A stretch of 48,227 nt of DNA from a bacterium (GCA_026414725.1 JAOAIL010000005.1:30501-78727), one strand, 5' to 3'. Numbered from the stretch's first letter, positions 7,830 to 40,197 are shown. Notes: generated by a model from the sequence alone, not told the origin. Numbers and translations: made by a program.

Positions 7830-8978
7830 TTACAAAAGAGGATATTTCCCGAACTCAACACCTGTCTTGAGAAACTCTATATAATTTTTTTCCATCTGAT
7901 TAGAGATAGGACTTGACTCAGGGATTCCTGAAGGAATAAGGATAAATCTTCCTTTTCTGCCTCCCTGAATAATCGCTTCCTTTGTCATAGCAACAATCTC
8001 TGATGTCTCCCTGAACTCAAGTTCTTCTGCCATAAGCCCGCCCATAAGAACAACATCATCTCCTGTTATCTTTCTTATCTTTAATATATAGTTAGGTGTA
8101 TCTGATGTATTTATAACTGGTTCAAGTATATCTATACCTAACTTAAGTACCAGAGGAAGGAGTTTTTCAATATCGCCATGCCAGTGATAGCATATATAGT
8201 TTTTATTTCCTCTTTTCAGTATATCTATCAGTTCTCTATCATATCTCAGAACAAGTTCGCTAAAAACCTTCTTTATATCAGGAAAATACTCTGGGGGAAG
8301 ATGAGGAGGCACAGCATATTCAGCTCCCCTTATTCTTATAACAGTATTGGCAACACTGGTAGAAATAAATCTATAAAGGTTGATCAACCGTTTCTGCATC
8401 TCATCAAGTAATCTGTATATGAGTTTAGGTGTAGAGAGTATGAACTGAGGCATATCTCCTGGTGCGAAAAGTTCATATATAACAGCCAGAGGGTCTGGGA
8501 GGGCAATCACTCCTATCCCTCTATCTCCAAGTTCACTGTTTATTTGGAAAAATTCTGTAAGGTCTGGTTTAAACGGTGTATAGGGGAGTTCAAGAAATTT
8601 TAATATATCTCTTTCACTTTCAATCCATGGTTTTTGAATCCATAGATGCATACTTGTCATTGATGTCCTGGCTGTCCGACTTAAAAGCCCTCTACGTGTC
8701 TCTACAGAAATTTTTACTGTCTTTGAAAGCGGAGTATCCTGAGATTCTTCTACTTTTGTCTCAATGCTCCCCGGTGCTGAAAAGAAAAACCCTGTTTTCG
8801 GTCGCCACAGATGAAATGTATCCTGGTATTCTTTCGCTGCAGAAAGCAGTTTCTCAAAACTTTTATGCTGTACCCAGAAACTATCCTTTTCAAAAGGGTC
8901 TATTTTGTAAAGAGAAACTGGAACCCTGTCAGGCATCATACCTCTTATTACTGCTATAATCCTTTCTCTACTTGTCAT
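7830..8978 (-). CDS. Uroporphyrinogen decarboxylase (URO-D) family protein
   Basis: A 382-residue TIM-barrel protein of the URO-D superfamily. The start SRERIIAVIRGMMPDRVPV is typical, as is the block CYHWHGDIEKLLPLVLKLG near residue 275 followed by DILEPV. This branch includes true heme-pathway decarboxylases and corrinoid methyltransferases of MtaA/MtbA type. The N-terminal arginine-rich substrate loop of true HemE is not evident, and no heme genes are nearby, so a methyltransferase-like or unknown role is as likely. The GGAGG ribosome site (8994-8998) is 15 bases from the ATG, unusually far. It is the last gene of the minus-strand run. Confidence 0.83.
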   Translation of the reverse strand: MTSRERIIAVIRGMMPDRVPVSLYKIDPFEKDSFWVQHKSFEKLLSAAKEYQDTFHLWRPKTGFFFSAPGSIETKVEESQDTPLSKTVKISVETRRGLLSRTARTSMTSMHLWIQKPWIESERDILKFLELPYTPFKPDLTEFFQINSELGDRGIGVIALPDPLAVIYELFAPGDMPQFILSTPKLIYRLLDEMQKRLINLYRFISTSVANTVIRIRGAEYAVPPHLPPEYFPDIKKVFSELVLRYDRELIDILKRGNKNYICYHWHGDIEKLLPLVLKLGIDILEPVINTSDTPNYILKIRKITGDDVVLMGGLMAEELEFRETSEIVAMTKEAIIQGGRKGRFILIPSGIPESSPISNQMEKNYIEFLKTGVEFGKYPLL

Positions 8979-13800: not shown

Positions 13801-15519
13801 TTAATATCCATGTATTTCTTTCGCAACCTCTTCTATAGATGTTATACCCTCATTTATCTTTTCAAGTCCATCCTCAAGTAATGCTTTCATCCCACACTCT
13901 TCAATAGCAACCCTTCTTATCTCTCCCAAAGGACGTTTTTCAATTACAGCACGCCAGAATGGCTCTGAAGGTATAAGTATTTCAAAAAGGGCTGTCCTTC
14001 CTTTATATCCCCCCCTGCAGAAAGCACATCCTTTAGGTTTGAAGAATTTCATCCCCATCGCTCTCTCTTCTAGTAAATGTATTTCAAGTAATTCTGTTTT
14101 TGAAGGACGATATTCCTCCTTACACCTCGGACATAATACCCTGACCAACCTCTGGGCAATAACACCTTCTATAGTAGAAGCAAGGAGGAACGGTTCTATT
14201 TGCATATCTATCAATCGCATTATAGTACTTGGAGCATCATTTGTATGTAATGTACTTAGAACAATATGACCTGTAAGTGATGCCTGGATTGCCATCTGTG
14301 CTGTCTCAAAATCCCTAACCTCTCCAACTAAAATTATATCAGGGTCCTGTCTCAATATACTTCTCAAACATCTCCCGAATGTAAGTCCTATCCTTTCTCT
14401 TATAGGTACCTGCACTGCCCCCTCAAGCATATATTCCACAGGGTCTTCAGTAGTAATTACCTTTACATCAGGGGTATTAAGTTTCCTTAAAATTGCATAC
14501 AGTGTTGTTGTCTTCCCGCAACCCGTTGGACCTGTTGCAAGTATGATACCATTGGGCTTTGTTATAATACTGTCTACTCTCTCAAGATTATCCTGACTTA
14601 AACCGAGATTCTCCAGTTCAAAAATTGTCTTTGCCCTGTCCAGAACCCTTACAGCGAGACATTCTCCAAAAACAGTGGGTACAGTATTAATTCTCAGGTC
14701 CACTGCCCTGCCCATAACAGATAGTTCAATTCTTCCATCCTGAGGTAACCGCCTCTCAGCAATATCCATTCCTGCCATAATCTTAAATCTGCAAAAGAGT
14801 GCGAAAGCAAGTCCTTTAGGTGGATGAACAAGGTCATAAAGCATCCCATCCACCCTATATCTCACACGGAAATCATCTTCAAATGGCTCAAGATGAAGGT
14901 CTGAAGCATTATCCCTTACTGTCTGAAGTAGTATCAGGTCAAAAAGTTTCACCACAGGAGGAAGGGAAGCAATCTCTTCTAATGAAGTTATGGTAGCATA
15001 TTCTCCCTGACTTGCAATTGATTCTAATTCTTCCATCTCTTCTACATCCTGTGCAAGCCACTTTATAAGGTCATCTATGGTTTCTATTTCTTTACCATAG
15101 TGTGTCTCTATTGCCTCTTTTATATCGCTTTCATCTGCAAGTACCATCTTTGTTTTATATCCGAGGACAAAGGATATATCATCCTGTATATTTAAACTCA
15201 GTGTATCACCCACTGCAAGTGTTAAAACATCCCTTTCTAATTTAACAGGGACAACATTGTATGTCTTGGCAAGTGCTGAAGGAAATGCCTCTACAGCCCT
15301 TCTATCTATAACAGTATTTTTCAGGTCTATCATCTCTATACCTGCCTGAATACTCAGAACACGTTTGAGGTCTCTTTCATCAACATATCCGAGGTCTACA
15401 AGAATTCTGCCAAGAAAATGTCCTGTCTTTCTCTGTATTTCAAGCGCCTCTCTCAGCTCCTTCTCTGTAATAATTCCTTCTTCAATTAACATCTCTCCCA
15501 ACAGTTTCCTTTCAGCCAT
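13801..15519 (-). CDS. pilB: Type IV pilus assembly ATPase PilB/GspE, second copy
   Basis: Cytoplasmic hexameric ATPase powering pilin polymerisation. An N-terminal MshEN/GspE-N domain (about 1-140) precedes the catalytic core: Walker A GPTGCGKTT near 330-338, Asp box ITTEDPVEY, Walker B IILVGEVRD and His box LSTLHTND. The zinc site is complete: CPRC then CAFC. I chose ATG 15519 because a GGAAGG ribosome site (15528-15533) lies 8 bases upstream; an in-frame GTG at 15528 falls inside that site. The start overlaps the end of pilT by 8 bases. Confidence 0.93.
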   Translation of the reverse strand: MAERKLLGEMLIEEGIITEKELREALEIQRKTGHFLGRILVDLGYVDERDLKRVLSIQAGIEMIDLKNTVIDRRAVEAFPSALAKTYNVVPVKLERDVLTLAVGDTLSLNIQDDISFVLGYKTKMVLADESDIKEAIETHYGKEIETIDDLIKWLAQDVEEMEELESIASQGEYATITSLEEIASLPPVVKLFDLILLQTVRDNASDLHLEPFEDDFRVRYRVDGMLYDLVHPPKGLAFALFCRFKIMAGMDIAERRLPQDGRIELSVMGRAVDLRINTVPTVFGECLAVRVLDRAKTIFELENLGLSQDNLERVDSIITKPNGIILATGPTGCGKTTTLYAILRKLNTPDVKVITTEDPVEYMLEGAVQVPIRERIGLTFGRCLRSILRQDPDIILVGEVRDFETAQMAIQASLTGHIVLSTLHTNDAPSTIMRLIDMQIEPFLLASTIEGVIAQRLVRVLCPRCKEEYRPSKTELLEIHLLEERAMGMKFFKPKGCAFCRGGYKGRTALFEILIPSEPFWRAVIEKRPLGEIRRVAIEECGMKALLEDGLEKINEGITSIEEVAKEIHGY

Positions 15520-16657
15520 TTCTATCACCTTCCATCTTCATATCTGCCATTCCTTCTGCCTCTAAATCTACCATTGCTTTATCTATAAGTCCTTCTGCAG
15601 CCAGTTCTGCCTTTGCGGACTTCGGGTCATATGAGAATGTAAGAACATCCTCAAGGTTTATCTTCCCTTCCCTGAAAAGTCGCATAAGGAAGGAATCCAT
15701 TGTTACCATACCCAATTTACCACCTGTCTGGATTTCTGAAACAATTCTGTATGTCTTTCTTTCACGTATAAGGTTCTGGATAGAGTTTGTAGCAATCATA
15801 AGTTCAAAAGCAGCAACCCTTCCTGGTTTATCAACCCTTTTTAGAAGAACTTGAGAAATAATGGCAAGTATTGAAACAGATAGCATAACCCTGATTTGCT
15901 CCTGCTGAGCGACAGGGAAAACATTAACAATTCTATCCACTGTTCTTGCAGCACCTGTGGTATGTAGTGTAGCGAATACAATATGTCCTGTCTCTGCAGC
16001 AGTAATCGCCGCTTCTATAGTTGCAAGGTCACGCATTTCACCAACGAGGAAGACATCCGGGTCCTGTCTTAAACCTCTCCTCAGTGCCTCCTCAAATGTA
16101 GGTACATCAACCCCTAACTCCCTCTGAGTAACAATAGACCTCTTATGAGAGTGATAATATTCTATCGGGTCCTCTATAGTAATAATATGTCTATCAAGGT
16201 TTTCATTTATCCAGTCAATCATAGATGCGAGTGTTGTGGTCTTACCAGAACCAGTAGGACCAACAACAAGAATAAGTCCTCTCGGCCTGGTTAAAAGATA
16301 TCTCATTGTCTTTTCATCCAGTCCTATCTGGTCAAACGTAAGGAATCTATATGGGATCAATCTCAGGGACATTGCAACATTTCCCCTCTCCTTAAACACA
16401 CTCACCCTGAACCTCGCAAGATCCTTGAAAGCGAAACCAAAGTCAGTACCACCTATTTTTTGAAGTTCCTCCTGATGTTCCCTTGACGTTATTGCCTTCA
16501 TATAGTTTACAGTATCATCTGGAGTAAGTGGCTCATTTCCTATTTTTGTAAGTCCTCCATGCAATCTTAACATAGGAGGAATACCTACATTAAGATGCAG
16601 GTCTGCTGCATTTTCCCTTACCTGTAATTCAAGCAGTTCCTCTATTCTTTTAGGCAC
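15512..16657 (-). CDS. pilT: Twitching motility / pilus retraction ATPase PilT
   Basis: Retraction ATPase that depolymerises type IV pili. The PAS-like N-terminal domain contains ENAADLHLNVGIPPMLR; Walker A GPTGSGKTT is at 133-141, Walker B VFLVGEMRD and the His box FATLHTTGA follow, and the segment before the C-terminal helices (NSIQNLIRERK) corresponds to the AIRNLIRE motif needed for retraction. The start is GTG with AGGAG six bases upstream and overlaps the preceding pilB by 8 bases. A Met/Glu/Ala-rich tail (about 355-381) is longer than in most PilT. Confidence 0.94.
   Translation of the reverse strand: MPKRIEELLELQVRENAADLHLNVGIPPMLRLHGGLTKIGNEPLTPDDTVNYMKAITSREHQEELQKIGGTDFGFAFKDLARFRVSVFKERGNVAMSLRLIPYRFLTFDQIGLDEKTMRYLLTRPRGLILVVGPTGSGKTTTLASMIDWINENLDRHIITIEDPIEYYHSHKRSIVTQRELGVDVPTFEEALRRGLRQDPDVFLVGEMRDLATIEAAITAAETGHIVFATLHTTGAARTVDRIVNVFPVAQQEQIRVMLSVSILAIISQVLLKRVDKPGRVAAFELMIATNSIQNLIRERKTYRIVSEIQTGGKLGMVTMDSFLMRLFREGKINLEDVLTFSYDPKSAKAELAAEGLIDKAMVDLEAEGMADMKMEGDRNG
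15528..15533 (-). promoter_or_regulatory. Ribosome-binding site that fixes the pilB start at 15519
   Basis: GGAAGG on the minus strand, 8 bases before ATG 15519. It covers the alternative GTG codon at 15528, which makes that longer start improbable. Confidence 0.55.
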
Positions 16658-18368
16658 CTTTTTCTCCTGTTACACTATAAACTTCATCAAGTGTTGTTAT
16701 CCCTTTCTTTACTTTTATATATCCATCTTCTACCATCATACGCATCCCGTATTTGCGGGCAACCTCTCTCAATTCTGCTGTCCCAACTCTCCTTAATGTA
16801 AGTTCTCTCAGTTCATCATTCATTGCAAATATCTCAAATATACCTAACCTGCCACGAAAACCGGTGAAATTACATTCATTACATCCTTTTGGCCTGCATA
16901 CATTAACTTCTTCCCCTTCTTCTATTCTTAATTTCCTTCTCATATCCTCATCCGGCTCTATTTTTTCCTTACAGTAAGAACATAGAACCCTCACCAATCT
17001 TTGTGCCATAACGCCCTGTACAGAAGATGCAATAAGAAAAGGAGGGACCCCCATATCTATAAGACGTGTAATTGCTCCGGGAGCATCGTTTGTATGAAGG
17101 GTACTGAATACGAGATGTCCTGTAAGGGCTGCTCTAACTGCTATATCTGCTGTTTCAAAATCACGTATTTCACCAACCAGTATAACATCAGGGGACTGTC
17201 TTAAAAATGACCTTAATGCAGCAGAGAATGTAAGCCCAATCTCTGAATTTACAGGGGTCTGGTTTATCCCTTCTATCTGATACTCAACCGGTTCCTCCAC
17301 AGTCATCAGTTTTCTATCCATTGTATTTAGGGCACTCAAAGCAGCATAAAGTGTTGTTGTTTTACCTGAACCGGTAGGACCTGTTACAAGTATCAAACCC
17401 GCTGAATATTTCAATAGTCCCTGCCATTTTTCAAAGTCATCGGGGAGGAAACCCAGTTCTCCAAGTCCCTTTAACATAGATGTCTTATCAAGGATTCTTA
17501 AAACAACACTCTCTCCATAAATACCTGGAAGAGTAGAAACACGGAAGTCAATGGGCTTACCTCCTATATCTAACATTATTCTGCCGTCCTGAGGTAGACG
17601 TTTCTCTGCAAGGTCCATCTTTGACATCAATTTAATCCTGGCTATAACTGCCTTTTCTATCCTTTTAGGTGGTGATACTACCTCATAAAGTACACCATCT
17701 ATACGAAACCTCACCCTGAATTTTTTTTCAAGTGGCTCAAGATGTATATCACTTGCCCTACGTCTTAATGCCTCAACAAAAACAAGGTTACATATCTTAA
17801 CTACTGGCGCCTGTAAAGCAAGTGTCTCTTCATCCTCTCCCGCAACCTCTGCTTCAGGAAGGTCAAGGTCTATAGTAGCACTGCTTGCTTCCTGAAGCAT
17901 CTGTGTTAAATCCTCCATTGTATCTCTTCCATAATATTTTTCTAACAATTGTTCCATCTCTGCAGGAAAGGTTATCATAACCTCAATCTCTTTTATGTTA
18001 TCAACTGCTATGAGTTTTTTGAAAAAATCAGCAGCAAGTATATTTATAGGGTCATCTGAAACAAGAATAAACCTTCCATCATCTCTCTTATCCCATGGAA
18101 CAATTCTGTGCTCTCTCGCTATTTTCGGTGGAATGGTATTTAAAATATCTGAAGGAATTTCTCTCGGGGGAAGTTCTCTCTGAACTATTCCTAACTGAAA
18201 ATAAAAAGAAGGGGATACCTCACCAAATGGGAGCATTCCCCTGTTCTGAAAGACCTCTTTTAATGGACTACCTGTAGATTCTTGCTCTTCAAGTGCTGCT
18301 TCTATTGATTTTCTATCCCACAAACCAATATTGGATATAATATTGATTACTTCTTTTTTTGTAGGCAT
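16650..18368 (-). CDS. pilB: Type IV pilus assembly ATPase PilB/GspE, first copy
   Basis: A 572-residue extension ATPase paralogous to the other pilB 1.1 kb downstream. The N-terminal MshEN-like domain covers about 1-150. The core shows Walker A GPTGSGKTTT at 330-339, Asp box MTVEEPVEY, Walker B VILVGEIRD and His box FSTLHTND, and zinc cysteines CSYC then CNEC. Both copies are intact, so they may serve different filaments or form a mixed motor. It starts 31 bases after the ribbon-helix-helix gene and lacks a strong ribosome site, which suggests dependence on upstream translation or lower expression. Confidence 0.93.
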   Translation of the reverse strand: MPTKKEVINIISNIGLWDRKSIEAALEEQESTGSPLKEVFQNRGMLPFGEVSPSFYFQLGIVQRELPPREIPSDILNTIPPKIAREHRIVPWDKRDDGRFILVSDDPINILAADFFKKLIAVDNIKEIEVMITFPAEMEQLLEKYYGRDTMEDLTQMLQEASSATIDLDLPEAEVAGEDEETLALQAPVVKICNLVFVEALRRRASDIHLEPLEKKFRVRFRIDGVLYEVVSPPKRIEKAVIARIKLMSKMDLAEKRLPQDGRIMLDIGGKPIDFRVSTLPGIYGESVVLRILDKTSMLKGLGELGFLPDDFEKWQGLLKYSAGLILVTGPTGSGKTTTLYAALSALNTMDRKLMTVEEPVEYQIEGINQTPVNSEIGLTFSAALRSFLRQSPDVILVGEIRDFETADIAVRAALTGHLVFSTLHTNDAPGAITRLIDMGVPPFLIASSVQGVMAQRLVRVLCSYCKEKIEPDEDMRRKLRIEEGEEVNVCRPKGCNECNFTGFRGRLGIFEIFAMNDELRELTLRRVGTAELREVARKYGMRMMVEDGYIKVKKGITTLDEVYSVTGEKGA

Positions 18369-34452: not shown

Positions 34453-34481
34453 ATTATACCAAAAAATAATCAGTTTTGAAA
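34453..34481 (-). promoter_or_regulatory. Promoter of the lolC-lolD-ilvE operon
   Basis: On the minus strand TTTCAA (34476-34481) and TATAAT (34453-34458, in context TTGGTATAAT) are 17 bases apart. The expected leader is about 80 bases and includes the hairpin at 34371-34392. The -35 hexamer is shared, on the opposite strand, with the rightward promoter. Confidence 0.5.
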
Positions 34482-34502
34482 TTTATTTAGATAAGGTATA
34501 AT
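34476..34502 (+). promoter_or_regulatory. Promoter of the RuBisCO-like protein operon
   Basis: TTGAAA (34476-34481) and a perfect TATAAT (34497-34502) with a 15-base spacer; the -10 is in the context ATAAGGTATAAT, identical over 12 bases to the clpC promoter. The start codon of the first gene is 21 bases downstream behind AAGGAGGG. Confidence 0.5.
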
Positions 34503-34523: not shown

Positions 34524-35489
34524 ATGAAATTGGGTGTGTTTTTAGTTTTATTCGGAGATAGACCTCTTGAAGAGGCACTGGATAAGGTAAAGGAGTTAGG
34601 ACTGGATACAGTGGAGATAGGCACAGGAAACTATCCAGGCAATAGCCACTGTAATCCTGATATACTTTTGAAAAAGCCCGATGAGATAAAAAAGTTTAAA
34701 GAAGCAGTAGGAAGTAGAGGTCTTGAGGTATCAGCACTATCCTGCCATGGAAACCCACTCCATCCAGATAAAAAGATAAGAGAGGCTCACAGAGATGCGC
34801 AGAGAAAAACCATACTTTTAGCAGAAAAGTTAGGAGTACCACGTATTATAACTTTTTCTGGGTGTCCCGGTGAGAGTGAAGATGCAAAATATCCCAACTG
34901 GGTTACCTGCCCCTGGCCTGATGACTTCTCCACAATACTTAAGTGGCAGTGGGAAAAAGAGGTTATTCCTTACTGGAAAGAAGAAGTAAAATTTGCCAGG
35001 GACCATAATGTAAACCAGATATGCCTTGAGATGCATCCTGGGTTTGTCGTATATAATCCTGAAACACTTCTTAAACTACGTGATGCAGCAGGTAAAGAAA
35101 TTGGAGCAAACTTTGACCCCAGCCATCTCTTCTGGCAAGGAATAGACCCCATCGCTGCTGTAAGAAAACTTTCTGGTGCTATATATCATGTCCATGCAAA
35201 AGATACAAAGATAGACCCTTACAATACTTCTATCAATGGTGTTCTTGATACTAAAACATATCTTGATGAGATAAACCGCTCATGGATATTCAGAACCGTC
35301 GGTTATGGACATGGCGCTGATTTCTGGAATGCTTTTGTTTCAAACCTTCGGCTTGTCGGATATGACGGAACATTGAGTATAGAACATGAGGACAGCTTGA
35401 TGAGTACAGAGGAAGGACTTAAAAAAGCCATTGATTTCTTAAAAGCAGTCCTTATCAGACAACCGAAACCAAAGGCATGGTGGACATAA
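34524..35489 (+). CDS. Xylose-isomerase-like TIM-barrel sugar isomerase/epimerase
   Basis: A 321-residue protein of the sugar phosphate isomerase/epimerase (AP endonuclease 2-like) superfamily, which acts on ketoses, inosose or 3-keto acids through a divalent metal. The four predicted metal ligands are Glu169 (CLEMHP), Asp198 (NFDPSH), His224 (YHVHAKD) and Glu287 (SIEHED). YGHGADFW near 261-268 belongs to the active-site rim. It is first in an operon with a GatZ-like protein and a RuBisCO-like protein, so the substrate is likely a sugar or sugar acid passed on to those enzymes. Ribosome site AAGGAGGG is strong. Confidence 0.88.
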   Translation: MKLGVFLVLFGDRPLEEALDKVKELGLDTVEIGTGNYPGNSHCNPDILLKKPDEIKKFKEAVGSRGLEVSALSCHGNPLHPDKKIREAHRDAQRKTILLAEKLGVPRIITFSGCPGESEDAKYPNWVTCPWPDDFSTILKWQWEKEVIPYWKEEVKFARDHNVNQICLEMHPGFVVYNPETLLKLRDAAGKEIGANFDPSHLFWQGIDPIAAVRKLSGAIYHVHAKDTKIDPYNTSINGVLDTKTYLDEINRSWIFRTVGYGHGADFWNAFVSNLRLVGYDGTLSIEHEDSLMSTEEGLKKAIDFLKAVLIRQPKPKAWWT

Positions 35490-35509
35490 AGAGAATTTAG
35501 GAGATAAAA

Positions 35510-36751
35510 ATGTTAGGTAAGTTCCTCTCCCCTGTACAACTTTTTGAAAGATTCAAAACAATAGAGGATATAAGTATTTTATGCATAGGTCCTGTAACAA
35601 CCAGTACAATTATTGCATCACTCCAGGTAGCATATGAATATGATTTCCCTTTATTTCTTATCGCTAGCCGTAATCAGATTGATTCAGATGAACTTGGTGG
35701 TGGTTATCTTAATAAATGGAACCAGCAGAGATTTGTTGATGGTGTAAGAAAACTGGCTGAAGAATATGGATTCCCAAAAGCAATTTATTTTTGCAGGGAC
35801 CACGGTGGACCATGGCAGAGAGATAGAGAACTAACTGAACAGTTAGAACGTGAAAAAGCGTTTAATCTCGGTATATCCTCATTTCTATCAGACCTACATG
35901 CTGGTTTTGATATTCTACATATTGACCCTACCAAAAATCCCTTTCTTAAAGATGGTTCTGACAGCACCGATGTTATCGTTGAAGACACGGTCTCTTTAAT
36001 AATGGCTATAGAGAAAGAACGGATTAAGCATAATATACCCCCCGTATCTTATGAAGTCGGAACAGAAGATATAAAAGGTGGACTGACACAGCCAGAAAAA
36101 TTCCAAAAATTTCTGTATAACCTGAAAAATAAATTGAAAGATAATTCTCTTCCTCTGCCTGATTTAATAGTTGGACAAACAGGAACACTGACAAAATTAG
36201 ATGAAAATTATGGATTTTTTCAACCGGATGTTGCTAAAGAATTATCTGTTATTGCAAAAGAACAGGGATGTCTATTAAAGGAACATAATGCTGATTATCT
36301 TGATGAAGAGACCCTGAAAATGCATCCTGTTCTGGGTATATCCACTGTAAATGTAGCACCTGAATTCGGAGTTACTGAAACAAAGGCACTTATAAGATTA
36401 TCTTACCAAACTCCTGCTGGTAAAAAATTTAGAGAACTTCTTAAAGAAAAGGTATTTTCTGAACCCCGCTGGAGAAAGTGGCTCCCTGAAAACATTAAAA
36501 ATATAAGTGATAGAGATTTTAAGAGTGACCCTGCTCTCTGCTATAAAGTACTGGTAAGTTGTGGACATTACTATATAGAAAGAGAAGATGTTATAGAAAC
36601 AAAGGAAAAGATGTTCCAGAATATTTCTAAAAATGGGTTTGACCCTGAAAAAGAAATTCTCGGAAGTATAAAACAATCAATATTAAGGTATGTCCATGCT
36701 TTTAATATGTCAGGACTGAATAAAAAATTGATGGAGGTTAAAGATGCATAA
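35510..36751 (+). CDS. GatZ/KbaZ-like class II aldolase-associated protein
   Basis: A 413-residue TIM-barrel protein resembling the GatZ/KbaZ family, described as the non-catalytic partner of class II tagatose-1,6-bisphosphate aldolase and formerly annotated as tagatose-6-phosphate kinase. Visible family blocks are ASRNQID (52-58), FCRDHGGPW (94-102), LHIDPT (136-141) and SYEVGTED (180-187). The catalytic GatY/KbaY partner is absent from the window, so it may pair with a distant subunit or act alone. The start follows AGGAG and the end overlaps the RuBisCO-like gene by 8 bases. Confidence 0.85.
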   Translation: MLGKFLSPVQLFERFKTIEDISILCIGPVTTSTIIASLQVAYEYDFPLFLIASRNQIDSDELGGGYLNKWNQQRFVDGVRKLAEEYGFPKAIYFCRDHGGPWQRDRELTEQLEREKAFNLGISSFLSDLHAGFDILHIDPTKNPFLKDGSDSTDVIVEDTVSLIMAIEKERIKHNIPPVSYEVGTEDIKGGLTQPEKFQKFLYNLKNKLKDNSLPLPDLIVGQTGTLTKLDENYGFFQPDVAKELSVIAKEQGCLLKEHNADYLDEETLKMHPVLGISTVNVAPEFGVTETKALIRLSYQTPAGKKFRELLKEKVFSEPRWRKWLPENIKNISDRDFKSDPALCYKVLVSCGHYYIEREDVIETKEKMFQNISKNGFDPEKEILGSIKQSILRYVHAFNMSGLNKKLMEVKDA

Positions 36752-38183
36752 TGTTATAGGTACCGGAAAAAATCTCAAAAATTTTATAGAACATCCTTAT
36801 TTCCAGGTTAAACCTGTAAGCAGTGAAGAAGAGGAAAGTCGCATACTTGAAGAATTAAATATGGAAAGGAATAACAGCCGGGGTCCAAATGTAGAAGTTG
36901 ATTATTATTTTGAGGTTATAAACACCGGCACTCCTATGGATGGATTGAAAAATGCTGCTAAAATGATTATGGAACACGGTACTTTAAAACCCTGGCATAG
37001 TGAAGGTAGTGAAAACACTAAAAAACCAGCACGATATGATGAAAATATGAGCTGGACAACCTCTATAAAACTACTGGGATATAATAAAAAAGAAAGGTTG
37101 GAAGCAGGATTAATCACCATTGCATATCCATTAGAATTTTTTGATAAACAGATTAAAAAATTCCCTCTCGCTCAACTTTTAATGGCTATTGCCAGTGAAC
37201 CTGTAAGTGCCTTTTCATTCTACCGCGGGGCAAGAATTATTGATATACGACTACCTGATATATTAAAAAAACGGCTACCCGGCATTCTATGGCCACATAA
37301 AAGAATTAGAAAATATCTTAATCTCTCTGAAGATGAACCTATCATCGGTACTATTGTAAAACCGAAAACTGGACTAACTCCTTCTCTATTTTCTGATGCA
37401 GTTGTTCAGGCAGCAATGGCAGGCGCAAAGTTTACGAAAGCAGATGAAAATATGCATCTTACTCTCCGAGATATCCCGCGATTTGTCAGCCGAGTTGTAA
37501 AAGACCTGAAAAAAGAAGGGTTTGACCTCGGACGAGAAAACGAAAAACCAAAAGGACCGAGATTTTTATTTGCACCGCATATTACTACAGATTCAGAAGA
37601 TATTATGGACTATGCAAAAGCAGCAATAGAAGCAGGAGCAAATGCATTGATGTTCTCTCCGTACTACAGTGGTGGTTTTCTCAAAATGGCTGAGATTGCC
37701 CAAACATTTGATGTCCCTGTCTATAGCCATACTGCTGGAATGAATATCATCACAGGAAGTACATACTGGGGAATATCTCCAGCAATAATGTACCTTTTTG
37801 CTGCTTATTTCGGGTCAGCATTTATGCAACTGCCTGCTGTAAATAGCTATCTGAAACCTGACGAAACAGAAAAGGCATTGATTCTACCTCGTCTTCAAAA
37901 AGAAAAACTGATTGGGAAAGAAGGTATGACACTAGTTATTGCTGGTGGTCTTGGTCCTGACAATATAGGTCTTAATATGAAATATCTCGGAATAGGTGGA
38001 AAAATGTTTTTAGCAGGTACATCTGTGTACAGCCATCCTGACGGACCATCTTCTGGTGTAAAAGCACTTATCCTCGCTTATCGTGCCTATATAGAAAAAG
38101 GAATAACAGACATATCCAAATTAAAACAGTTTGCAAAGTCAAAAGGCGAAGAAGGAAATGCTCTACTTAAGGCATTGATATAA
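36744..38183 (+). CDS. RuBisCO-like protein (form IV RLP)
   Basis: A 479-residue RuBisCO large-subunit homologue with N-terminal domain (about 50-190) and TIM barrel (200-460). Lys206 and Lys208 (GTIVKPKTG), Lys232, Asp234 and Glu235 (FTKADE), and His329 (YSHTAG) match spinach K175, K177, K201, D203, E204 and H294, so metal binding on a carbamylated lysine and enolisation are possible. The HRAMH motif is lost (SHTAGMN), the loop-6 GxxxGKLEG motif with K334 is absent, and the FGGGT phosphate motif reads FLAGT. CO2 fixation is therefore not expected; isomerase, decarboxylase or transcarboxylase chemistry, as in other form IV proteins, is more likely. GGAGG precedes the start. Confidence 0.9.
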   Translation: MHNVIGTGKNLKNFIEHPYFQVKPVSSEEEESRILEELNMERNNSRGPNVEVDYYFEVINTGTPMDGLKNAAKMIMEHGTLKPWHSEGSENTKKPARYDENMSWTTSIKLLGYNKKERLEAGLITIAYPLEFFDKQIKKFPLAQLLMAIASEPVSAFSFYRGARIIDIRLPDILKKRLPGILWPHKRIRKYLNLSEDEPIIGTIVKPKTGLTPSLFSDAVVQAAMAGAKFTKADENMHLTLRDIPRFVSRVVKDLKKEGFDLGRENEKPKGPRFLFAPHITTDSEDIMDYAKAAIEAGANALMFSPYYSGGFLKMAEIAQTFDVPVYSHTAGMNIITGSTYWGISPAIMYLFAAYFGSAFMQLPAVNSYLKPDETEKALILPRLQKEKLIGKEGMTLVIAGGLGPDNIGLNMKYLGIGGKMFLAGTSVYSHPDGPSSGVKALILAYRAYIEKGITDISKLKQFAKSKGEEGNALLKALI

Positions 38184-38197
38184 TACAGGAGTTTTAA

Positions 38198-38764
38198 GTG
38201 AAACAAAAAAGAGCAACCAGAATAATCATTGGCGGTTCAGGGGGACAGGGGATATTAACAGCAGGTAAGGTCATTTCCTATGCAGCCATAAAACAGAATA
38301 TGAATGTAAGTTGTCTACCCTCATATGGAGCAGAGATGCGTGGTGGTTATGTTTATTGCTCCATAGTTATCTATTCAGCAGAGGATATTGTATCCCCTGT
38401 AAGCACTGAAGTAGATATAGGCGTCTTTTTAGATGAGAACTCATACAGGATGTTACATGGTTATCTTAAAAAAGATGCCTTTGTTATATTAAACTCTTCC
38501 CTTATTGGAAAGTCCTATATATCAGGAACAAAGATAATTAAGATTGAAGCAAGTGAAATCGCTGAAAATTTAGGAAGTATAAAGACAACTAATATGGTAG
38601 CAACGGGCGCAACAGGTTATATCATCAATCATTCCTTCTTTCCTTTTCACCTGAAAAATTTATATTATGGAATAGAACAGGTATTTCCATCAAACGAACT
38701 TGTTGAGATGAGCAAAAAAAGTTTAGAATCTGGCTGGAACATAATAGAAGAAAAATGGAAATAA
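38198..38764 (+). CDS. 2-oxoacid:ferredoxin oxidoreductase gamma subunit (orphan)
   Basis: A 188-residue gamma subunit of the pyruvate/2-ketoacid:ferredoxin oxidoreductase family: GGSGGQGILTAGKVI at 12-26 and SYGAEMRGGYVYCSIVI near 47-63 are diagnostic, and the C-terminal PFHLKNLYYGIEQVF helix is typical. Alpha, beta and delta genes, normally adjacent, are missing here. A beta-type subunit lies at the right edge on the other strand and might be its partner. The start is GTG with AGGAG six bases upstream, 14 bases after the RuBisCO-like gene, so it is in that operon. Confidence 0.9.
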   Translation: MKQKRATRIIIGGSGGQGILTAGKVISYAAIKQNMNVSCLPSYGAEMRGGYVYCSIVIYSAEDIVSPVSTEVDIGVFLDENSYRMLHGYLKKDAFVILNSSLIGKSYISGTKIIKIEASEIAENLGSIKTTNMVATGATGYIINHSFFPFHLKNLYYGIEQVFPSNELVEMSKKSLESGWNIIEEKWK

Positions 38765-40197
38765 AAGATATAGAAAAGGTTAGTGAATATAAATGGATAA
38801 TACCTAAAAAGGAAGATATGAGGGTACCCGGGATACTCTATATCTCTGAAAAACTTCTAAGTAAAGCACTTTCAGACAATGCCCCATTACAGGTTGAAAA
38901 TGTCGCTAAACTCCGTGGTATTGTAAAGTACAGTCTGGCTATGCCTGATGTGCACTGGGGATATGGAGCACCAATAGGAGGAGTGGGTGCCTTTGATTCA
39001 GAAAGTGGTGTGATAGTTCCTGGATTTGTGGGATACGATATCTGTTGTGGGGTCCGGCTTATCAGAACAAATATGCAATACAAAGATATAAAAGACACAT
39101 TACAGCATCTGATAAATTTACTCTTTACCAATATCCCTTCAGGTGTTGGTTCTGAAGGGAATTTATCTTTGAAAAGAAAGGATTTAGAGAAGGTAATTGT
39201 TGAAGGTGCCAGATGGGCTGTAAAAAATGGTTTTGGAATCCAGAGTGATATTGAATGTATTGAGGACTATGGGACAAAAAAAGATGCTAACCCTGATGTA
39301 ATAACCAACCGCGCCTATGAAAGAGGTACTTCACAATTAGGCACACTGGGGTCCGGTAATCATTTTCTTGAAATACAGCAAGTGATAGATGTATATGATA
39401 AAGAAATAGCAGAAAAATTTGGTATATTCAAAGGGCAGATAACCATTATGGTCCATTCAGGCAGCAGGGGTTTTGGTTATCAGATATGTGAGGACTTCTT
39501 AGACAGGTTCGGGAAGGTTGCATTGGACTATGGGATTAAACTTCCTGACAGGCAACTTGCCTGTGCACCCGCTAATTCTAAAGAAGGGAAACAGTACTTA
39601 ATGGCAATGAATGCAGCAGCCAATTACGCCTTTGCTAACAGACAGATTATAACTCACTGGATAAGGGAGACATTTTCTAATGTATTGAAAACACCATGGG
39701 AAAAATTGGAGATGTATACTGTGTATGATGTTGCCCACAATATCTGTAATCTTGAAAAACACAATGTTGATGGTAGAGAAAGATGGCTTTTCATCCATAG
39801 AAAAGGGGCAACACGCGCATTTCCCAAAGGACATCCTGCACTACCTGAAAAGTATAAAGATACAGGACAACCAGTTATCATTCCAGGAACTATGGGAACC
39901 TCTTCATACATACTTGTAGGTACAGAAAAAGCAATGGAAGAGACATGGGGAAGCACCTGTCATGGTGCAGGGAGAACAATGTCAAGACATCAGGCAATTA
40001 AAGAAAGTAAAAACAGAGATATTATAGAAGAACTTGCAGGAAAAGGAATAATGGCAAAAGGTGTGAGTAGAAAAGGACTTGCAGAAGAGATGCCTGATGC
40101 GTATAAAGATATAGATGAAGTTATAAAAGTAGTGGAAGGAGCAGGTCTATCAAAAAAGATAGCGAGGATGGTCCCTCTGGCTGTTATGAAAGGTTAA
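38755..40197 (+). CDS. rtcB: RNA ligase RtcB, archaeal-type long form
   Basis: GTP- and Mn-dependent ligase joining 2',3'-cyclic phosphate or 3'-phosphate ends to 5'-OH ends. The 480-residue length and motifs match the archaeal and metazoan form more than short bacterial RtcB: Asp95 and Cys98 in GYDICCGVRLIR, GSGNHFLEIQ with His203, VHSGSRGFG with His234, His329 (VAHNIC), and the guanylylated His403 in STCHGAGRTMSR. Residue positions line up with the Pyrococcus enzyme almost one to one. No RtcA or RtcR is nearby. It overlaps the gamma subunit gene by 10 bases and closes the operon. Confidence 0.95.
   Translation: MEIKDIEKVSEYKWIIPKKEDMRVPGILYISEKLLSKALSDNAPLQVENVAKLRGIVKYSLAMPDVHWGYGAPIGGVGAFDSESGVIVPGFVGYDICCGVRLIRTNMQYKDIKDTLQHLINLLFTNIPSGVGSEGNLSLKRKDLEKVIVEGARWAVKNGFGIQSDIECIEDYGTKKDANPDVITNRAYERGTSQLGTLGSGNHFLEIQQVIDVYDKEIAEKFGIFKGQITIMVHSGSRGFGYQICEDFLDRFGKVALDYGIKLPDRQLACAPANSKEGKQYLMAMNAAANYAFANRQIITHWIRETFSNVLKTPWEKLEMYTVYDVAHNICNLEKHNVDGRERWLFIHRKGATRAFPKGHPALPEKYKDTGQPVIIPGTMGTSSYILVGTEKAMEETWGSTCHGAGRTMSRHQAIKESKNRDIIEELAGKGIMAKGVSRKGLAEEMPDAYKDIDEVIKVVEGAGLSKKIARMVPLAVMKG

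Follow-up and report, generated by a model that had tools for sequence, protein, structure and literature searches.

What does a RuBisCO-like protein (RLP) do when its gene directly follows that of a GatZ/KbaZ homolog, and does the gene in front of the two take part? This question is raised by a bacterial locus in a 48,227-nucleotide stretch of DNA (GCA_026414725.1 JAOAIL010000005.1:30501-78727; hereafter the window), where three plus-strand open reading frames (ORFs) encode a xylose-isomerase-like TIM barrel protein of 321 amino acids (aa) (gene 1; 34524..35489), a GatZ/KbaZ-like protein of 413 aa (35510..36751) and an RLP of 479 aa (36744..38183). An earlier note on this DNA had taken the three for a single operon serving a new sugar-degrading route. 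The ORFs, with gaps of 20 bases between gene 1 and the gatZ-like gene and of -8 bases between the latter and the RLP gene, are exact in their coordinates, and the family assignments are borne out, all three ORFs exceeding the curated Pfam cut-offs (PF01261, named AP_endonuc_2, 1.5e-35; PF08013, GatZ_KbaZ-like, 3.4e-12; PF00016, RuBisCO_large, 8.1e-20). The unit itself reads differently: the gatZ-like and RLP genes form a pair inserted behind gene 1, and the two proteins may together rearrange a sugar.

The GatZ-RLP pair and the older operon

A search of 31 genomes at ranks from genus to class matched gene 1 in every one, and in most of them the match is a close ortholog (66-91% identity). Directly 3' of it, in 12 of the 15 informative relatives (two of the same genus among them), lies the gene for a gamma-type subunit of a 2-oxoacid:ferredoxin oxidoreductase (PORgamma), which is followed in most of these loci by that for RtcB; several relatives also retain lolCD/ilvE upstream of gene 1. 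In the window, the gene run goes on beyond the RLP with the same two genes on the plus strand, PORgamma (38198..38764; PF01558) starting 14 bases later and an RtcB RNA-ligase family protein (38755..40197; PF01139) closing the older cluster. The presence of gene 1 in every genome searched and its direct contact with PORgamma in relatives thus show, at the level of synteny, that the gatZ-like and RLP genes of the window genome are a two-gene insert between the two, by which PORgamma, the older neighbor of gene 1, is now displaced.

Gene 1 is joined to PORgamma-RtcB also in genomes that have neither GatZ nor an RLP of the group to which the window's protein belongs (branches X1 and X2, described below), and the trio of gene 1, gatZ-like and RLP genes had no second occurrence among the genomes searched. 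Tight spacing on one strand, with co-transcription likely, would favor a reading in which all three genes make up one new sugar pathway with the xylose-isomerase-like protein as its first step, but the phylum-wide distribution of gene 1 and the absence of the trio elsewhere make that reading highly improbable. As judged from this distribution, gene 1 is a core gene of the phylum and a bystander to the pair, not an RLP-specific partner as the earlier note had it. The linkage to be expected from the note's three-gene unit is accordingly not conserved for the trio in relatives; for the GatZ-RLP pair, it is seen again in a second family of the order.

The pair was counted in a sample of 35 genomes of this small, uncultured phylum. 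A GatZ of this kind is present in 4 of the 35, and RLPs of any type in 11, 6 of these 11 belonging to the X1/X2 group. Both GatZ and an X1/X2-group RLP occur in two genomes, that of the window (G000) and one from another family of the same order (G017), and since in both of them the GatZ gene adjoins the RLP gene on the same strand and in the same order, the pair is probably a functional unit. The G017 pair is no near copy of the window's, its GatZ being 38% identical and its RLP a member of the sister branch X2. That GatZ and RLP are unrelated cargo genes with separate roles, landed together by chance, is unlikely: most genomes do have one gene without the other, but the same adjacency and order in divergent copies would hardly arise by chance in a 2.7-Mb genome. 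In a further genome (G019), the GatZ gene stops 7 bases short of the contig end, which may have cut off its partner. When the remaining X1-RLP genomes, and three with other RLPs, were searched by PF08013, no GatZ was found, an absence that is limited to the sampled genomes and is not strong, the model being weak for this subfamily (46 bits for the window protein). As the GatZ tree does not group the window and G017 copies to the exclusion of those linked to the phosphotransferase system (PTS), the pair could be of old origin or could have arisen twice. No description of the X1/X2 clade or of GatZ-RLP pairing was found in the literature searched, most subscription journals lying outside the search.

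The "clear promoter" once ascribed to the operon was not confirmed. Inspection of the sequence 5' of gene 1 finds a weak promoter-like pair on the plus strand, TTGAAA and TATAAT (34476..34502), with a spacer of 15 bases; a promoter scan called no plus-strand promoter at these positions, and promoter-like sites in the region are fewer than in shuffled sequence (9 vs 13.9). If a promoter, the pair would belong to gene 1.

Gene 1, PORgamma and RtcB form a triad conserved through the phylum, in which a sugar-isomerase-like protein, an orphan gamma subunit and an RNA ligase travel together. The RtcB ORF of one genome (G006, L074:4496-7444) is 982 aa long, about 500 aa above its relatives, and possibly contains an intein; for the window RtcB, too, there is a match to the NCBIfam "intein-containing RtcB" model, which lies outside the intein part.

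Placement and active site of the RLP

A maximum-likelihood tree of 32 sequences places the window RLP in branch X1, which has five members (the window, the same order, Clostridia, Thermotogae and Aerophobetes; support 100/100). X1 is sister to X2 (100/100) and lies apart from MtnW, OiaX, DUF1537-linked, Photo (represented by the Thiodictyon Photo-locus RLP) and form I/III sequences. Membership of the RuBisCO superfamily is given by PF00016 (71.7 bits, cut-off 30.1), and NCBIfam RuBisCO-family models score the protein at 65-89 bits against cut-offs of 409-700. Assignment as a form I/III carboxylase was rejected (form III score 89 of 497 bits; carboxylase residues lost; p value of the approximately unbiased topology test, p-AU, 0.005 for X1 with forms I/III), as was assignment as MtnW (75-88 of 409-514 bits; p-AU 7e-5), as OiaX (76 of 700 bits; p-AU 2.5e-5; no PF07005 match in the window genome) and as Photo type (p-AU 3e-4). 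By tree, topology tests and cut-offs, then, the RLP is a form-IV protein on a deep branch outside the sampled types, much as the earlier note had supposed, with "unassigned" being relative to a reference set that leaves out the form-IV deep-YkrW/R. rubrum 5-methylthioribulose-1-phosphate isomerase RLP, IV-Aful, IV-GOS and IV-AMC. Within the order of the Clostridia genome, a search of 295 genomes recovered the known X-clade RLP and a partial match in G229 only.

The RLP retains equivalents of RuBisCO K175 and K177 in the KPK motif K206-K208 (37359..37367, plus strand), of carbamylated K201, D203 and E204 in the metal site K232-x-D234-E235 (37437..37448, plus strand), and of H294, G380 and G381; the metal site is invariant in 10 of 10 members of the X1/X2 group. 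Changes at RuBisCO positions are R295T, H327Q, K334Y, S379A and E60H, the N-terminal positions being less certain. The structural model (predicted local distance difference test score, pLDDT, 83.7) has a RuBisCO fold, with TM scores of 0.7-0.85 to RuBisCO and RLP structures. With the metal and lysine site kept and carboxylase residues lost, this pattern fits metal-dependent enolisation without carboxylation.

Two assigned RLP functions bear comparison with this pattern. Like OiaX of the apionate route, the RLP might be a beta-keto acid decarboxylase; its substrate would be a phosphorylated 3-oxo sugar acid, prepared by GatZ or another enzyme. OiaX, the 3-oxo-isoapionate-4-phosphate decarboxylase, is known from annotated loci as an RLP of sugar-acid catabolism, it has the same metal triad, and one X2 relative (G080) lies near a DapA-like aldolase, an enzyme common in sugar-acid routes. 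We nevertheless consider such a role quite unlikely given the model score and rejected topology above, the loss from the window RLP of R295 and K334 (kept in OiaX) and of G403-G404, and a search that found no DUF1537 kinase domain in the window, G017, G020, Clostridia or Thermotogae genomes. The decarboxylation proposed in the earlier note is likewise not supported.

Alternatively, the RLP could serve methionine or 5-methylthioadenosine salvage as an enolase or 1,3-isomerase, with GatZ an incidental neighbor. Its closest solved relative by sequence is the B. subtilis 2,3-diketo-5-methylthiopentyl-1-phosphate (DK-MTP-1-P) enolase, and MtnW, the form-IV RLP with this activity, is alike in fold, K175, the metal triad K201/D203/E204 and H294, and probably in its enolising chemistry; MtnW differs in forming a separate clade and in keeping E60, T65 and K334, which are changed in the window RLP. 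Of the known RLP partners, the DUF1537 kinase domain was not found in the window genome, which was searched family by family, and an MtnA ortholog is encoded away from the pair in that genome, as well as in most relatives tested. MtnA also occurs in the RLP-less genome G008, however, and a search of the Clostridia genome with an X1 RLP did not recover it; the MtnW models score far under their cut-offs, the joint clade was rejected, and the neighbors of X1 RLPs in other phyla are sugar genes. A salvage role is thus very unlikely.

The GatZ-like protein and the neighborhoods of related RLPs

The GatZ-like protein belongs to its family by PF08013 (46.2 bits, cut-off 26.7), and the GatZ/KbaZ equivalog models of NCBIfam give 25-35 bits against cut-offs of 569-707. 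The residues proposed for catalysis and metal binding in E. coli GatZ have their counterparts, by alignment, in D97-H98, E182/E186 and H259 of the window protein, and the best structure matches of the model are 2fiq, at the top, and 3txv. E. coli GatZ/KbaZ homologs have been described as fructose-6-phosphate/tagatose-6-phosphate C4-epimerases with a proposed retro-aldol/aldol step (PMC11907403). The window protein is thus a probable metal-dependent C4-epimerase of a ketose or ketose phosphate, and what the earlier note called "aldol chemistry" is more fittingly described as C4-epimerisation, for which that step has been proposed. E. coli GatZ/KbaZ, annotated as a tagatose-bisphosphate aldolase subunit, shares the Pfam family, the predicted fold (2fiq) and the proposed active-site residues; it differs in that its Lys279 position appears to be Asn in the window protein, which also has no adjoining GatY/KbaY aldolase subunit. 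The closest annotated relatives found (~40% identity) are GatZ proteins of PTS operons in Listeria, Enterococcus, Klebsiella and Pantoea, which are tied to PTS transport and mostly accompanied by fructose-6-phosphate aldolase or transaldolase/transketolase, not by an RLP.

GatZ-like genes are also frequent on IMG/VR viral contigs (L146-L225), with 155 confirmed candidates at about 26-35% identity, and their Asp-His pair is conserved in 4 of 4 aligned. No RLP was found near the viral GatZ-like genes in 80 loci; the viral contigs gave four weak RLP matches.

The X1 RLP of the Clostridia genome stands amid ATP-binding cassette (ABC) transporter genes, genes of glycoside hydrolase families 38 and 4 (GH38, GH4), a PfkB kinase gene and a mannitol-1-phosphate-dehydrogenase-like gene, in a cluster that also holds an amidohydrolase, weakly uronate-isomerase-like. 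In Thermotogae and Aerophobetes, a PfkB kinase gene follows that of the RLP, and the X2 RLP of G080 (L030:4255-11678) adjoins a 1211-aa GH38-like protein, the DapA-like aldolase, a LarA-like protein and ABC sugar transport genes, these G080 neighbors being named from sequence appearance without a family search. Sugar catabolism is the best reading of these neighborhoods, given the PfkB kinases, sugar transporters and glycosidases (GH4/GH38) beside the relatives. The idea of a sugar breakdown route survives, without the isomerase as a pathway partner. Resemblances to sulfofructose kinase and sulfoquinovose isomerase fell far short of assignment and play no part in this reading.

Within the window genome, the kinase closest to the RLP-linked PfkB kinases is 37% identical to them and unlinked, and the sole GH4 found shares 74% identity with the GH4 neighboring the GatZ gene of G008 and 55% with a GH4 of the Clostridia RLP cluster.

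Three further features of these loci were observed. The G080 neighborhood is a possible second sugar pathway for branch X2. G012 and G015 (L080:12099-14724; L008:324-2949) offer another example of an RLP behind a housekeeping gene: there, the gene of an X2 RLP overlaps a tilS-like gene at the end of the latter. Genes of the URO-D/MtaA-like methyltransferase family are found repeatedly next to clusters with an RLP or GatZ (Clostridia L034:5050-6108, 13894-14964 and 16055-17107; G017 L032:4225-5388), with another elsewhere in the window (7830-8978), and a link of these genes to methylated sugars is possible.

A candidate sugar-rearranging module

Taken together, these comparisons give about an even chance to the reading that the pair is a sugar-rearranging module of sugar catabolism, in which a putative C4-epimerase works with a putative enolising RLP isomerase. 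The GatZ-like protein would epimerise C4 of a ketose, probably phosphorylated, by retro-aldol/aldol chemistry. In the RLP, Mg2+ held by carbamylated K232, D234 and E235 would polarise the carbonyl, and K206 (RuBisCO K175) would accept or relay the proton; reprotonation of the enediolate at a different position would then move the carbonyl or invert a center, with zero net carboxylation. In this way, an unusual ketose or a derivative of a keto-sugar, which a GH4/GH38-type glycosidase may have freed, would be converted by the pair into a form usable by central metabolism.

Several observations weigh against this module. The adjacency rests on two cases; G008 has GatZ without an RLP, and the genomes with an X1/X2 RLP but no GatZ are G020, those of the Clostridia, Aerophobetes and Thermotogae, and G012, G013, G015 and G080. 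X1 shows poor conservation of residues at the phosphate site, which leaves a phosphorylated substrate less than assured, and the branches of X1 and X2 are long, so that their union could be partly artefactual. The pair has neither a sugar kinase gene nor a transporter gene next to it in the window, and the GH4 of the window genome is also present in a same-genus genome that has neither GatZ nor RLP.

The general idea of a sugar-epimerase RLP is not new, since an actinobacterial RLP beside an epimerase-domain gene has been read from its gene neighborhood as a possible sugar epimerase (PMC7325909). That Hakuba actinobacterium protein, compared here by its description only, is likewise of form IV with an epimerase-domain gene nearby and a proposed sugar role, and it differs in that its neighbor carries a different epimerase-type domain (cd09023).

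More tentatively, and at somewhat less than an even chance, X1/X2 would be a functionally new clade of the RuBisCO superfamily serving glycoside catabolism in several phyla. Its members would catalyse the isomerisation or epimerisation of a sugar or sugar phosphate and would be partnered by either a GatZ-type C4-epimerase or a PfkB kinase. Few reactions have been assigned to RuBisCO-like proteins. The search for another reaction of the superfamily has a concrete starting point in an RLP clade that spans several phyla, is linked to sugar genes and lies apart from those assigned types that were tested, and the GatZ partner narrows the search for its substrate to ketoses or ketose phosphates, which can be tested at the bench.

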